Positions 6,614 through 26,700 of a DNA stretch of 64,000 nucleotides are shown here, piece after piece (position 1 is the first letter of the stretch; every line of letters starts with the position of its first letter). Below the pieces are notes generated by a model. The model had not been told where the DNA came from and searched no databases. It saw only the letters and a list, made by a program, of their open reading frames with translations. A program made the translations under genes and the position numbers. Source of the DNA: Pusillimonas noertemannii (lineage in GTDB: Bacteria > Pseudomonadota > Gammaproteobacteria > Burkholderiales > Burkholderiaceae_B); contig NZ_QEKO01000007.1 in NCBI RefSeq assembly GCF_003096595.1, positions 1-64,000 of the forward strand, written 5' to 3'.

Positions 6614-7825
6614 ATGGCATCAAACAGAGGCGTGGCTTACATCGAGCCAGGCAAGGTCGAAGTCCAATCCATTCCCTTTCCCGAACTGGTCAACCCCGGG
6701 GGCAAAAAGGCCAACCACGGCGTCATCCTCAAGGTTCTTTCCACCAATATCTGCGGCTCCGACCAGCACATGGTGCGCGGCCGCACCACCGCCCCGGCCG
6801 GCCTGATCCTGGGCCATGAAATCACCGGCGAAGTGCTCGAGGCCGGCGGCGACGTCGAGTTCCTGAAAAAAGGCGACATCGTCTCGGTGCCCTTCAACGT
6901 GGCCTGCGGGCGCTGCCGCACCTGCAAAGAGCAGGACACCGGCGTGTGCCTGAACGTCAACCCCTCGCGCGCGGGCGGCGCCTACGGCTATGTCGACATG
7001 GGCGGCTGGATAGGCGGCCAGGCCGAGTACGTCATGGTGCCCTACGCCGACTTCAACCTGCTGAAGTTCCCCGACAACGACCAGGCGCGTGAAAAAATCC
7101 AGGACCTCACCTGCCTGTCCGACATCCTGCCCACCGGCTTTCACGGCGCGGTCAGCGCCGGGGTGGGCCCGGGCAGCACGGTGTATGTGGCGGGCGCCGG
7201 CCCCGTGGGCCTGGCGGCGGCCGCTTCGGCCCGCCTGCTGGGCGCGGCGGTGGTCATCGTGGGCGATCTCAATGCCGAACGCCTGGCGCACGCACGCAAG
7301 GTGGGTTTTGAAACCGTCGACGTGTCGCAAGACGCCTCGCTGGGCGAGCAGATCGCGCAAATCCTGGGCACGCCCGAGGTAGATTGCGCCATCGACGCGG
7401 TGGGCTTCGAGGCGCGCGGCCACGGCCACTCGGGTTCGCAAACCGAAGCACCCGCCACCGTGCTCAATTCGCTCATGGACATCACCCGCGCGGCGGGCAA
7501 GATCGGCATCCCGGGGCTATACGTTACCGAAGACCCGGGCGGCGTCGACAAGGCCGCCCAGCATGGCTCGCTAAGCGTGCGGTTCGGCCTGGGCTGGGCC
7601 AAGTCGCACAGCTTCTTCACGGGCCAGACCCCGGTCATGAAGTACAACCGGGCCCTGATGCAGGCCATTCTGTGGGACCGCATCAACATCGCCGAAGTGG
7701 TGGGCGTGCAGGTCATCAGCCTTGATGACGCCCCGCGCGGCTATCACGAGTTCGACGCCGGCGCGCCCCGGAAATTCGTGATCGATCCTCACAACCAGCT
7801 GGGGCATCTGCGCAAGGTCGCCTGA
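6614..7825 (+). CDS. fdhA: Glutathione-independent formaldehyde dehydrogenase (zinc, NAD+)
   Basis: A 403-residue medium-chain dehydrogenase closely resembling Pseudomonas putida FdhA, which oxidises formaldehyde to formate without added glutathione. Catalytic zinc residues Cys47 (ICGSD) and His68 (GHE) and the structural-zinc cysteines 98, 101, 104 and 112 are present. The long insert seen in the tetrameric formaldehyde dehydrogenases (AQHGSLSVRFGLGWAKSHSF region) is also there. AGGAG lies 8 bases before the ATG. Its place behind ligB-ligA suggests it removes formaldehyde set free from methoxyl groups or methanol. It ends at a strong terminator (7847-7876). Confidence 0.9.
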   Translation: MASNRGVAYIEPGKVEVQSIPFPELVNPGGKKANHGVILKVLSTNICGSDQHMVRGRTTAPAGLILGHEITGEVLEAGGDVEFLKKGDIVSVPFNVACGRCRTCKEQDTGVCLNVNPSRAGGAYGYVDMGGWIGGQAEYVMVPYADFNLLKFPDNDQAREKIQDLTCLSDILPTGFHGAVSAGVGPGSTVYVAGAGPVGLAAAASARLLGAAVVIVGDLNAERLAHARKVGFETVDVSQDASLGEQIAQILGTPEVDCAIDAVGFEARGHGHSGSQTEAPATVLNSLMDITRAAGKIGIPGLYVTEDPGGVDKAAQHGSLSVRFGLGWAKSHSFFTGQTPVMKYNRALMQAILWDRINIAEVVGVQVISLDDAPRGYHEFDAGAPRKFVIDPHNQLGHLRKVA

Positions 7826-7846
7826 CCTCCCGGCCAATGCAGTGCA

Positions 7847-7876
7847 ATGTGCGGCCCCCGGGCCGCACATTTTTTT
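7847..7876 (+). terminator. Rho-independent terminator after fdhA
   Basis: A perfect 10-bp stem, ATGTGCGGCC / GGCCGCACAT, with loop CCCG and a run of six T residues. It ends the ligB-ligA-fdhA transcript 22 bases after the stop codon. Confidence 0.9.
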
Positions 7877-8000
7877 GCCGATGGGGCCAGCTATTTTGCT
7901 CTAAGCCGATAAGCCCGAATAGAAAACTGCTGTACTGCAGAAGAGAAAAGTCGTGCAGAAAATCCAGCACACCAACCTGCGAAGCCCTGCGGCATCCCCG

Positions 8001-8243
8001 CCTTAGACACCCAGAGGAGCGATGCGGGGAAGTATTTTGGGCGACGTTGAGCGAGCCGAGCACCCTGACGTTTTTGGGGATGCAAGCCCGCAACTGTTCG
8101 AGCAACACGGGTGCGGGCCACCGGCCCGCAGTTGCGAGTTTTGCGGGCGCCCCAAAAATGATAGGGTGCGAGGGCAGCCGGCGAAGCCGGCCGAAGCTCT
8201 CCGGCGTCCAAAATACGGCCCCGCAGCACGCCGGCTTAAAGAC
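8001..8243. repeat. Long imperfect palindrome: two inverted copies of a repeat element
   Basis: In the 463-base gap between the convergent fdhA and aminotransferase genes, two arms of about 95-115 bases face each other. Shared blocks in arm 1 order are GCGGGG (8025 region), GTATTTTGG (8032), GAGC, GAGCACCCT, TTTTTGGGG and CGCAACTG (8089-8096). Arm 2 carries their reverse complements in mirror order, from CAGTTGCG (8129-8136) through CCCCAAAAA and AGGGTGCGA to CCAAAATAC and CCCCGC (8208-8223). Arm 2 has about 15 extra bases around a GCCGGCGAAGCCGGC hairpin. The outer flanks carry a TTTGCTCTA direct repeat (7895-7903, 8283-8291) that may be chance. No protein is encoded. It resembles a dispersed intergenic repeat inserted as an inverted pair. 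Confidence 0.65.
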
Positions 8244-8288
8244 CCAAATACAGACAGGCCCCAACTCTAAAGCATTTTCCGATTTGCT

Positions 8289-9422
8289 CTAGGCAGGGGT
8301 GATCCGCTCCAGCGCCTTGGCCAGATTGTTTACGCTGCGGTCCACATCGCGCAGCTTGTCCAGGCCGAACAGGCCCAGCCGGAAGGTCTTGAAGCCCGGA
8401 GGCTCGTCGCATTGCAGGGGCACGCCGGCCGCGGCCTGGATGCCCGCCTCGGCAAACTTGCGGGCCGAGTGGATGCCGTCGTCCGTGGTGTAGCTTACTA
8501 CCACCCCCGGGGCCTCGAAACCGGGTGCGGCAACGCTCTTGAAACCTTTTTCGCGCAGCAGCGCGCGCACCCGGGCGCCCAGTTCGAACTGCGCCTCGCG
8601 CAAGGCGTCGAAGCCTTCGGACTCGGCCTCGGCCATGGCGTCGCGCAGCACCGTGAGCGAGTCGGTGGGCATGGTGGCATGGTAGCCGAAGCCGCCCTGC
8701 TCATATGCCTGCATGATGCCCAGCCATTTGCGCAGGTCGCTGGCAAAGCTGGTGCTGGTGGTTTGTTCGATGCGCTCGAGCGCAGTGGCGGACAGCATGA
8801 CCAGGCCGCAGCAGGCGGAACCCGTCCAGCCCTTTTGCGGCGCGCTGATCAGGATGTCGACGCCGGTGTCGCGCATATCGACCCAGAGGGTTCCGGACGC
8901 GATGCAATCGAGCACGAACAGGGCGCCCACGGCGTGGGCCGCATCAGCCACGCGGCGCAGATAGTCGTCGGGCAGCAAGATGCCCGAGGCGGTTTCGACG
9001 TGCGCGGCAAATACCAGGTCGGGCTTCTGGCGCGCGATGGCCTGGACGACCTCTTCGATGGGGGGCGGCTGGTAGGCCGCTTGTTCGCCCGCCTCGATGG
9101 GCCGGGCCTTGAGGACGATTTCTTCGGCGGGAATGGAGCCGGCCTGGAAGATTTGCGTCCAGCGGTAGCTGAACCAGCCATTGCGTATGACCAGGCAGCG
9201 CTTGCCGGTGGCAAACTGCCGGGCCACGGCTTCCATGCCGAAGGTGCCGCTGCCCGGCACCACGATGGCGGCCTGTGCGCCGTACACCTGCTTGAGCGTG
9301 CGGGAGATGTCCTTCATGACGCCCTGGAAGGCGCTGGACATGTGGTTGAGCGCGCGATCGGTATAGACCACCGAATATTCGAGAAGTCCGTCGGGATCGA
9401 CGTCGGGCAGCAGGCCGGGCAT
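8289..9422 (-). CDS. Class V aminotransferase (alanine/serine-glyoxylate type)
   Basis: A 377-residue PLP enzyme of the alanine-glyoxylate / serine-pyruvate / 2-aminoethylphosphonate aminotransferase family. The PLP lysine is Lys197 in SAPQKGWTG. Asp172 in FVLDCIASG is the residue that contacts the pyridine nitrogen, and PGSGTFGMEA (residues 56-65) forms the phosphate-binding loop. The ATG at 9422 is chosen because GGAG lies six bases before it. It is last in the galB-C-D-hydrolase-dehydrogenase run. Such an enzyme is not part of the known gallate route, which is one reason to suspect a nitrogen-containing substrate. The amino donor and acceptor cannot be told from sequence. Confidence 0.8.
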   Translation of the reverse strand: MPGLLPDVDPDGLLEYSVVYTDRALNHMSSAFQGVMKDISRTLKQVYGAQAAIVVPGSGTFGMEAVARQFATGKRCLVIRNGWFSYRWTQIFQAGSIPAEEIVLKARPIEAGEQAAYQPPPIEEVVQAIARQKPDLVFAAHVETASGILLPDDYLRRVADAAHAVGALFVLDCIASGTLWVDMRDTGVDILISAPQKGWTGSACCGLVMLSATALERIEQTTSTSFASDLRKWLGIMQAYEQGGFGYHATMPTDSLTVLRDAMAEAESEGFDALREAQFELGARVRALLREKGFKSVAAPGFEAPGVVVSYTTDDGIHSARKFAEAGIQAAAGVPLQCDEPPGFKTFRLGLFGLDKLRDVDRSVNNLAKALERITPA

Positions 9423-9513
9423 ATGCGTCTCCACGTTTTCCGCCCTGATGGCGGCGGATCGATTGCTTATTGTAGGCCAGGAGGGAGCTTAGGGCCTGTT
9501 AACACTAAAGGCT

Positions 9514-17594: not shown

Positions 17595-17690
17595 TGGCGG
17601 AAAGCAGCAGGAGTCGAACCTACCTGGGAACGTCTGACGCCCCCAACTGGGTTTGAAGCCCAGCCGTGCCACCGGACACGAATGCCTTCC
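17595..17690 (-). tRNA. selC: tRNA-Sec (anticodon TCA)
   Basis: A 96-base selenocysteine tRNA with encoded CCA. The 8-bp acceptor stem is GGAAGGCA / TGCTTTCC, with one G-T pair. The anticodon stem-loop is CTGGGCTTCAAACCCAG with anticodon TCA, and the long variable arm follows it (GGGGGCGTCAGACGTTCCC). The T-loop reads GGTTCGACTCC. The long variable arm and 8-bp acceptor are diagnostic. It lies 11 bases after the selB stop and 65 before selD, so it is probably processed from an operon transcript. Confidence 0.96.
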
Positions 17691-23731: not shown

Positions 23732-26700
23732 TTACTCCCTCTCGACCTTGACCAGGAAAGACTTGAACTCGGGTGTTTGCGAGTTGCCGTCTCCTACGGG
23801 CGGGGTCAGTGTGTTGGCCAGGAAGCCCGGCCGGGCCAGGCCGACGAAACCCCAGTGAATCGGAATGCCCACCTGATGGACCGTTTTGCCCTCGACCGTA
23901 AGCGCCTTGATACGCTTGGTAACCAACGCCACGGCCTTGATGTAACCCCGGTTCGAAGACACCCTGACGCGCGAGCCGTTGGCAATGCCCAGCTCTTGGG
24001 CCAGCGCCTCGCCGATTTCGACGAATTGCTCGGGCTGCAGGATGGCGTTGAGCTTGACGTGCTTGGTCCAGTAGTGGAAATGCTCGGTCAGGCGGTAGGT
24101 GGTGGCCACATAGGGGAAGTCGGCCACCTTGCCCATGGTTGCGAGGTCGCCCTCGAATATGCGGGCCGCGGGATTGTTGACCGCCCGTTTTTCGTCGGGG
24201 AAAAGCGGGTTGTAGCCCAGGGGCGTTTCGAACGGCTCGTAGTGCGTGGGGAAGGGACCTTCGGCCATGCCCTTGCGGGCGAAGAATCGCGCCACGCCCT
24301 CGGGGTTCATGATGAAGGGGCCCATGCCGTCGAGCGGGTTCTCGTCGACCTTGAAGTCGGGCACGTCGGCGCCCACCCAGGCCTTGCCGTCCCAGTGGAT
24401 GACGCTGCGGCGCGGGTTGAACGGCTTGCCTTCCAGGTCGCACGACGCGCGGTTGTACATAATGCGCCGGTTGGCCGGCCAGGACCACGCCCAGTTCAGG
24501 GTTTGGCCGATGCCGGTGGGGTCGCTGTTGTCGCGGCGCGCCATGAGATTGCCCGCCGCGGACCAGCTGCCGGCGTAAAGCCAGCATCCGCTGATGGTGG
24601 AACCGTCGTCGCGCAGCTCGCCGAAGCCGGCCAGCTGTTCGCCCGCCTTGCGCAACACCCGCATGGGGTTGTTGGAGTCGACCAGGTCGACCAAGGCGCG
24701 GCCGCTGTACTCTTTGGCCAGCTCTTCGGCGGTGGGGTTCTCGGGGTTGGAATACGGCCACCACAGATTGACGATGGGGTCGGGGAAGGCCCCGCCGTCT
24801 TTCTCGTACATGGCCCGCATGCGGCTGAACAACAGCGCCATGATCTCGATGTCGCTCTTGCCCTCGCCGGGCGGGTTCGCGCCTTTCCAGTGCCACTGCA
24901 GCCAGCGTCCCGAGTTGACCAGGGCGCCTTCCTCTTCGGCGAAACAGGTGGTGGGAAGACGGAAGACCTCGGTCTGGATGGAAGCCGTGTCGACATCGTT
25001 GAACTCGCCGACATTGCGCCAGAACTCGGAGGTTTCTGTAACGAGCGGATCCATGATGACCAGGAACTTGAGCTTGGAGAACGCATCGAGCAGCTTGGCC
25101 TTGTAGGGCGCCGCCGCCAGCGGGTTGAAGCCCTGGCAGATGTAGCCGTTCATCTTGCCCTGATGCATCAGCTCGTAGACCTGCAGCATGTCGTACGGAC
25201 GGTCCATCTTGGGCAGGTAGTCGTAGGCCCAGTTGTTGTCGGGACGCGCGGCGTCACCCCACCATGCCTTCATGAGGCTGACGTGGAACTTGCGGTAGTT
25301 GCGCCAGTAACTGAGCTGGTTGGGGCGCAAGGGCATCTGCGTGCGGCTGGTGATGTAGGCCTCGTAGTCTTGCTCGGCGTCGTTGGGCAACGTCAGGTAG
25401 CCCGGCAGCAGGTTGGACATGAGGCCGATGTCGGTAAGGCCCTGGATGTTGGAGTGGCCGCGCAGGGCGTTCATGCCGCCGCCCGCCACGCCGATATTGC
25501 CCAGCAGCAGCTGCACCATGGCGCCGGTGCGGATAACCTGCGAGCCGATGGAGTGCTGCGTCCAGCCCAGTGCGTACATGATGGTGGCCGCGCGGTCGGT
25601 GGTGGCCGTTGAAGCCAGCATTTCGCACACCTTCAGGAACTTGTCGGCGGGTGTGCCGCACACGCTCTCGACCATTTCGGGCGTGCAGTTCGCGTAATGC
25701 TGCTTGAGCAGTTGATAGACCGTGCGCGGATGCTTCAGCGTGGGATCGACCCGGGCATAGCCGTCTGCATCGAGTTCGTAGTCCCACGACGCCTTGTCGT
25801 AGGTGCGCTTTTCTTCGTTGTAGCCCGAAAACAGGCCCTCTTCGAAGGAGAAGTCTTCGCGGACGATGAACGGAAGATCGGTGTAGTTGCGCACATATTC
25901 GTGCTGGATCTTGTCATTTTCGAGCAGATAGCGAATGACGCCCCCCAGGAACACGATGTCGGTTCCGGTTCGGATGGGCGCGTAGAAATCAGCCACCGAT
26001 GCCGAGCGGTTGAAGCGCGGATCGACGACAATGAGCTTGGCCTTGTTGTGCGCCTTGGCCTCGGTAACCCATTTGAAGCCGCAAGGGTGGGCTTCGGCGG
26101 CGTTTCCGCCCATGATCAGCACAATATCGGCGTTCTTGATGTCGACCCAATGGTTCGTCATCGCTCCACGGCCAAACGTCGGGGCAAGACCTGCCACCGT
26201 CGGACCATGTCAGACACGAGCCTGGTTGTCGAATCCAAGCGCGCCAAGGCTGCGGACAACCTTGTGCGTTACATAGGCAACTTCATTGGAACTGGCCGAG
26301 GCGGCCAGCATGCCGGTGGTGAGCCAACGGTTGACCAGCTGGCCTTTTTCGTTTCGCTCGATAAAGTTGGCGTCACGGTCTTCTTTCATGAGCTTGGAGA
26401 TGCGCGTAAGCGCGTCGTCCCATGAAATACGTTCCCATTTGTCGGAGCCGGGGGCGCGGTACTCGGGGTATTTCAGCCGGTTGGGGCTGTTGATGAAATC
26501 AATAAGACCCGCGCCCTTGGGACAGAGCGTGCCGCGGTTGACCGGGTGGTCGGAATCGCCCTCGATGTGGACGATGCGCGACGTGGCGTTCTTGGCGCCG
26601 TCGCCCAGACCGTATAGCAAAACCCCGCACGCTACCGAACAGTATGGACAGGTGTTGCGCGTTTCAGTCATGCGCGCAAGCTTGTATTGGCGAACCTCAG

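Follow-up and report, generated by a model that had tools for sequence, protein, structure and literature searches.

In the window, by which we mean the whole 64,000-nucleotide stretch of Pusillimonas noertemannii DNA that was analyzed, a convergent gene pair comprises a left gene at 6614-7825 (+), which we take to be zinc alcohol dehydrogenase-like, and a right gene at 8289-9434 (−), presumably aminotransferase-like. Between them, at 8001-8243 (+, which serves as the reference orientation), lies an imperfect palindrome that we term the element, or palindrome B. The inverted arms that a reading from the sequence alone (the sequence-only reading) had proposed between these convergent genes were recovered by inverted repeat search as two pairs, namely (i) an outer left arm at 8016-8052 (+), which is 76% complementary to the outer right arm at 8196-8232 (+), and (ii) an inner left arm at 8060-8079 (+), which is 85% complementary to the inner right arm at 8150-8169 (+). 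Two doubts attached to that reading, that the arms might show no significant similarity and that the sequence might be unique, were both removed: the arms scored 29.5 against each other, above the maxima of 25.0 reached by 1,577 other 243-base tiles taken across the window at a step of 40 and of 23.0 reached by 1,000 one-arm shuffles, and blastn found repeats of the element in its own genome. The + strand was predicted to fold at −130.4 kcal/mol (z −6.95), a value equaled by none of 200 shuffles. Mechanical open reading frames overlap the element on both strands, and none of them, on either strand, passed a codon-usage gene caller; a coding role was rejected on these grounds, in keeping with the lack of coding capacity proposed from the sequence.

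The central part of the element, at 8076-8153 (+), is a core conserved between genera, with stems P1-P4 and one-sided bulge motifs; it matched R1, our 79-position model of the core, at 89.2 bits, a score to be read in light of the window copy's own presence in the R1 training set. An accessory hairpin at 8176-8192 (+), which was predicted from the fold with coordinates taken from the sequence, is carried by the right arm only. The window copy is uninterrupted at 8138-8139 (+), the equivalent of the point GCGAG^TTTTGCGGG at which, judging from the junctions in sister copies, an intron has inserted. To the right, a short flank at 8244-8288 (+) resembles, in a ten-copy alignment and by eye, the tandem-repeat flank of the sister copies; to the left, the flank at 7882-8000 (+) is part of a segment absent in P. 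caeni and lacks palindrome A, the partner palindrome of other copies. A terminator-like hairpin followed by a T run, at 7846-7871 (+) and thus outside the element, belongs to the left gene; P. caeni has an equivalent of it.

Copies, fold, and composite unit

A blastn search of the own genome (15 contigs totaling 4.2 Mb) gave 21 matches, which resolve into 17 places and four inverted single-arm matches that fall inside those places. Ten places hold full or nearly full copies; the other seven hold half copies (three left and four right), all at contig ends, and every half copy runs into one end of one common sequence, a group II intron. The 5′ ends of this intron lie at the contig ends in L008, L011, and L017, and its 3′ ends at those in L013-L016; the sequence starts with GTGTG and finishes with AT. 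In each of the two loci tested, its first part scored 34.5 bits against the Rfam family group-II-D1D4-3 (cut-off, 32), and two loci with only the intron 3′ end gave no Rfam match, RF02001 being matched by the 5′ part alone. A 144-base query from the intron 5′ end matched three own-genome places, which are the three left halves. The insertion site is one exact point in the core, common to four copies. Since gene neighborhoods in P. caeni pair two of the left halves with two of the right halves, the elements in the own genome number at least 14, of which 10 are uninterrupted and four are split by the intron. The group II intron also breaks the own-genome assembly at the repeat, and the intron body is absent from the assembled loci.

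Beyond this genome, R1 (matches at E 0.001 or better) was found in at least 56 of the 151 genomes of the bacterial family and in at least 22 of its 43 genera, counts that are lower bounds given the strict filters and the 30 candidates scored per genome. Among 250 genomes drawn from the order, two matched: one was the own genome, and the other gave four weak matches (best, 2.6e-4). Rescoring in small sets gave 50 R1 matches in CGII-64 (G151, the same as G393), 49 in G003, 47 in G035, 34 in G066, 22 in G004, and 16 in G020. The R1-confirmed carriers include Pusillimonas sp. MFBS29, Pollutimonas subterranea, P. nitritireducens, Allopusillimonas ginsengisoli, and Alcaligenaceae CGII-56, with CGII-64 and P. 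caeni (G002) as further carriers. Of 25 pattern-matched loci that belong to neither CGII-64 nor P. caeni, 10 had a strong R1 match, all in Alcaligenaceae; the other 15 had none (best, 0.02), and pattern matches outside Alcaligenaceae were rejected as chance. Plasmid and phage records gave no blastn match to the whole element at 1e-5, and no Rfam family matched it at the gathering cut-off, permissive matches of 14.7-17.3 bits lying far under the cut-offs. The element belongs to a dispersed, non-coding, structure-conserved repeat family whose named carriers are Alcaligenaceae. The dispersed REP/MITE-like repeat suspected by the sequence-only reading is thereby borne out through the search of own and related genomes, in the 14 or more own-genome copies, the large hairpin, and the family-wide matches. 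Two loci in P. caeni, L264 (G002:C16, 595-661) and L263 (G002:C20), carry palindromes that follow the element's plan but are divergent or shortened; R1 scores such palindromes weakly or not at all, and the family is therefore wider than R1.

The ten own copies align throughout, and the unpaired blocks conserved among them are not the same in the two arms. Other genera share a core of 76-85 bases. In alignments that were built without structure, and from which the structures were then predicted, 16 of the 22 predicted core pairs (21 sequences) show at least one pair-keeping double change, as do 30 of the 56 predicted pairs over the full length (22 sequences, comprising 10 own, 10 P. caeni, and two G001 copies). 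The stems differ between genera yet remain paired, and the one-sided bulge motifs are conserved. Because each arm has its own conserved unpaired motifs, and because all seven half-matches end at the intron, at contig ends, the arms are not copies of one repeat; palindrome B is one asymmetric fold rather than a monomer repeated in two facing copies. Of the earlier proposal that two facing repeat copies form a dimer with a large hairpin, the hairpin therefore stands, whereas the dimer, at the 240-base scale, does not.

The true facing pair consists of palindrome B and an inverted palindrome A upstream, of which the window copy has B alone. In CGII-64, a second, inverted palindrome precedes B, and degenerate tandem repeats flank both sides. 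Ten copies in the own genome have, upstream, a conserved block of ~180-220 bases that is palindromic by eye and ends 19 to ~260 bases before the element; it is absent at the window copy and at L156, L155 is cut by a contig end, and the four right halves cannot show it. Both partner palindromes match R1 in other genera, and 11 pairs less than 1 kb apart, drawn from the matches listed in G003, G004, G020, G068, and G097, were head-to-head (− then +) in 10 cases and + then + in one. The full unit opens with degenerate tandem repeats, continues with palindrome A, a spacer, and the inverted palindrome B, and closes with tandem repeats again.

The base composition of these flanks is skewed in some genomes. 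In the convergent gaps of CGII-64, the tandem flanks are T-/G-rich on the strand transcribed from each gene, and the skew flips sign across palindrome B (22 convergent copies given, two dropped for lack of palindrome A, and 20 counted). Flank T exceeds A in 13 of 15 own copies, seven of eight in P. caeni, and 12 of 20 in G066, which does not have the CGII-64 pattern. Since the copies are related, the flank skew was not used as evidence of termination.

Chromosomal placement and turnover

The location preference that the sequence-only reading had raised as a point to check was examined in six genomes, in which 56 of 85 copy-bearing two-sided gaps were convergent, compared with 22 of 255 other gaps in five genomes (those of at least 50 bases within the loci that hold the copies, with genes from a simple codon-usage caller). 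By genome, the convergent fractions of occupied versus other gaps (one-sided Fisher tests) were 7/9 versus 9/77 in the own genome (p 6e-5), 23/31 versus 5/109 in CGII-64 (p 4e-15), 12/19 versus 5/38 in G066 (p 2e-4), 6/10 versus 1/15 in G004 (p 0.007), and 4/8 versus 2/16 in G020 (p 0.07); in P. caeni, for which no background was taken, the fraction was 4/8. The placement therefore shows only weakly in P. caeni and G020. The copies entered were the 17 own places, all 10 from P. caeni, 45 pattern-found copies from CGII-64, 20 of 34 from G066, 16 of 22 from G004, and nine of 16 from G020. Where only one side could be assigned, the known gene points at the element in seven of eight own copies and in 13 of 14 from CGII-64.

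Four of the 10 P. caeni copies lie at positions common with the own genome and in the same orientation, with flanking proteins 82-98% identical. At all four, copies from the same genome are closer to one another (best, 0.81-0.93) than to the positional counterpart (0.67-0.77), a pattern that shows homogenization within each genome. Orthologous gaps, measured from stop to stop, were sought for seven own copies (the window copy, L165, L157, L156, L158, L162, and L160). The window gap spans 463 bases in the own genome and 112 in P. caeni, where there is no recognizable remnant and where a 37-base R1 match (E 0.09) is at chance level. At L165, the gap is 958 bases, whereas the orthologous genes overlap, by some 7 bases in P. 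caeni and by 11 in G001; the best reading is that the own lineage gained the insertion. As a candidate target-site duplication, a 4-base AACG occurs on both sides of it but is too short to trust. At the same locus (L165 5625 / L256), the 958-base insertion shortens the C terminus of the neighboring MutY-like protein, whose gene overlaps the next in P. caeni.

Losses with remnants are shown by the P. caeni sequences at two further loci: the L157 gap (1,008 bases, versus 167 in P. caeni and −1 in G001) retains in P. caeni, by eye, the end pieces of both palindromes, and the L156 gap (430 bases, versus 118 in P. caeni and 10 in G001) contains in P. caeni the end of the left arm fused to the right flank. 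The L158 gap measures 683 bases versus 31 in G001, the genes not being adjacent in P. caeni. At L162 (905 versus 439 bases), the palindrome in P. caeni is divergent but contains the core motif (R1 E 0.0025); at L160 (1,107 versus about 790 bases), P. caeni has tandem flanks together with a shortened palindrome from which the core motif is missing. As judged by these alignments, the family has been gained, lost, and homogenized in related bacteria.

Relation to known repeats

To our knowledge, REP, BIME, and ERIC have long been without a settled function, and ERIC also without a known mechanism of movement. By analogy, the element would work like ERIC and BIME. As an imperfect intergenic palindrome of more than 100 bases, it has the form of ERIC, and it shares with the ERIC/RU type (treated in excerpts of PMC2759123) its non-coding nature, a dispersed intergenic distribution, and a MITE-like character without a gene of its own. 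In contrast to ERIC, it is about twice as long, has conserved one-sided bulges and stems that vary by genus, has an inverted partner palindrome and tandem flanks, and occurs in another bacterial family; this comparison is by description, its sequence side being the lack of an Rfam match. Terminal inverted repeats and the absence of coding capacity are features that it has in common with MITEs. Like REP and BIME, as covered in excerpts of PMC3733652 and PMC2817692, it is palindromic, has many copies, forms inverted pairs, is enriched between convergent genes and downstream of genes, and may have an RNA or DNA role. However, its 243 bases compare with a REP unit of 20-40 bases, and REP and BIME have RAYT transposases, whereas the element shows no RAYT association. 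A tagged REP was rejected for the window copy, in which GTAG is absent and CGTC occurs once, at 8205, inside the right arm.

Group II introns insert into hairpins such as terminators and attC, and we considered attC as a candidate kind for the element, given its bulged hairpin and the presence of an intron in sister copies. Like intron-targeted hairpins, the element carries a group II intron at one hairpin point, in four copies; unlike terminators and attC, the target here is a dispersed repeat. A link between group II introns and integrons is treated in excerpts of PMC7923331. Our literature search for an earlier description found BRE and Bor-1 as the nearest published repeats, and we therefore make no claim that print holds no relative. 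BRE, in excerpts of PMC3110155, is a GC-rich intergenic repeat of ~75-91 bases in Bordetella and other Betaproteobacteria, arranged in tandem head-to-tail arrays, mostly in co-directional gaps; its length is similar to that of our core, whereas our pairs are head-to-head (10 of 11 among the matches listed). Bor-1 of Bordetella, in excerpts of PMC2267715, is an intergenic stem-loop with a 117-base model and 196 matches in B. bronchiseptica, and resembles the element in being intergenic and structured. Both comparisons are by description, and either repeat may be a relative.

Mechanism and alternatives

With a little less than even confidence, we favor a structured repeat that is mobilized in trans, survives at gene 3′ ends, and acts there as a two-way barrier. 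A trans-acting enzyme would recognize the folded strand and spread the element; copies would persist at gene 3′ ends, where they would do least harm; and the hairpin in place would limit read-through between convergent units in both directions, as proposed for ERIC and BIME. The insulation of convergent transcripts, also put forward by the sequence-only reading, is plausible by this analogy. No intrinsic-terminator pattern was found inside the element, and the sole terminator-like site in 7800-8320, where chance would give about 0.8, precedes it; the element was therefore rejected as an intrinsic terminator. That a terminator-like hairpin of the left gene precedes the window element counts against the barrier explanation, as do the lack of a terminator pattern inside the element, the weak convergent placement in P. 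caeni and G020, and the absence of the element from several orthologous gaps in P. caeni, which keeps the left-gene hairpin at the orthologous site though the element is absent. Regarding the moving enzyme, the transposase association suggested for checking did not materialize in the one family searched, Y1/RAYT (PF01797): 12 of the 56 genomes with the element carry such genes, as do 21 of the 95 without it, and the own genome has none. RAYT/Y1 was rejected as the mover on present evidence.

The observed gain, loss, and decay remnants, a fate not tied to the neighboring genes (with four of 10 P. caeni positions common), and carriage by only 56 of the 151 family genomes are also what would be expected of a purely selfish MITE-like element, whose fold would serve its own spreading, whose insertions convergent gaps would tolerate, and which would have no effect on host transcription. 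We regard this as possible but less likely: under neutrality, the convergent excess of occupied gaps would demand strong purging elsewhere, no associated transposase was found in a search of the Y1 family, and the candidate target-site duplication, the AACG at L165, is too short to trust. A broader proposal, which we judge unlikely, is that the family represents an undescribed trans-mobilized class in which the shape of a folded strand, as RNA or lagging-strand DNA, would be recognized, with the paired palindromes as a putative insulator between convergent genes, homogenized per genome and, in some lineages, held in one orientation per replichore.

Which strand folds, and whether it does so as RNA, bears on a reading that we hold to be very unlikely, namely that a + strand transcript acts through its fold, either within a 3′ UTR or as a small RNA, with RNA stability as one possible target. 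Non-standard pairs favor G-T over A-C by 22 to 3 in the own and P. caeni copies (pairs from the + strand fold), and by 5:2 in G066, 12:5 in G004, 9:8 in G020, and 9:3 in CGII-64 (both-strand pairs). Moreover, in stem P2, two adjacent G-C type pairs are jointly swapped for G-A and A-G in five of 21 sequences, and constraint is unequal between the arms. Together, the G-T excess and the P2 exchange hint that the + strand is folded, as RNA or as single-stranded DNA. However, a mutational strand bias could yield a like excess, G020 shows none (9:8), the + strand fold is no better than the − strand fold there (three of seven copies), no Rfam family matches, and single-stranded DNA would leave the same trace. 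Less probable again is a DNA-level chromosome element, for instance an orientation mark, or a putative topoisomerase site at which supercoils between convergent genes would be relieved. The convergent placement would suit it, as would the strand order in two genomes, in which neighboring copies lie on one strand in 25 of 26 cases (CGII-64, 45 of the 50 matches listed) and 23 of 27 (G035, 47 of 47), and the whole-locus GC skew in CGII-64, which in element orientation is positive in only four of 42 loci and thus not positive in 38. Against it, there is no strand order in G003 (22/44), G066 (15/28; 29 of 34 copies used), the own genome (3/9), or P. caeni (2/3), and the third-position skew in CGII-64 gives a less clear picture, with 15 of 42 loci positive, the gene strand being unbalanced there. 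Replication polarity, seen in two of six genomes, was rejected as a general rule; the near-constant orientation in CGII-64 and G035 is a lineage trait of chromosome polarity.

Closely related species provide orthologous sites at which a copy is present, decayed, or missing, the conserved motifs of the family point to a recognizer, and its placement in convergent gaps is strong; the questions of whether the element stops transcription and of what moves it are thereby directly testable.

Elsewhere in the window, Rfam searches identified a selenocysteine tRNA at 17599-17690 (−; 73.2 bits) and a SECIS_3 element at 26157-26215 (−; 79.5 bits), which together mark a selenocysteine cluster ~9 kb long.
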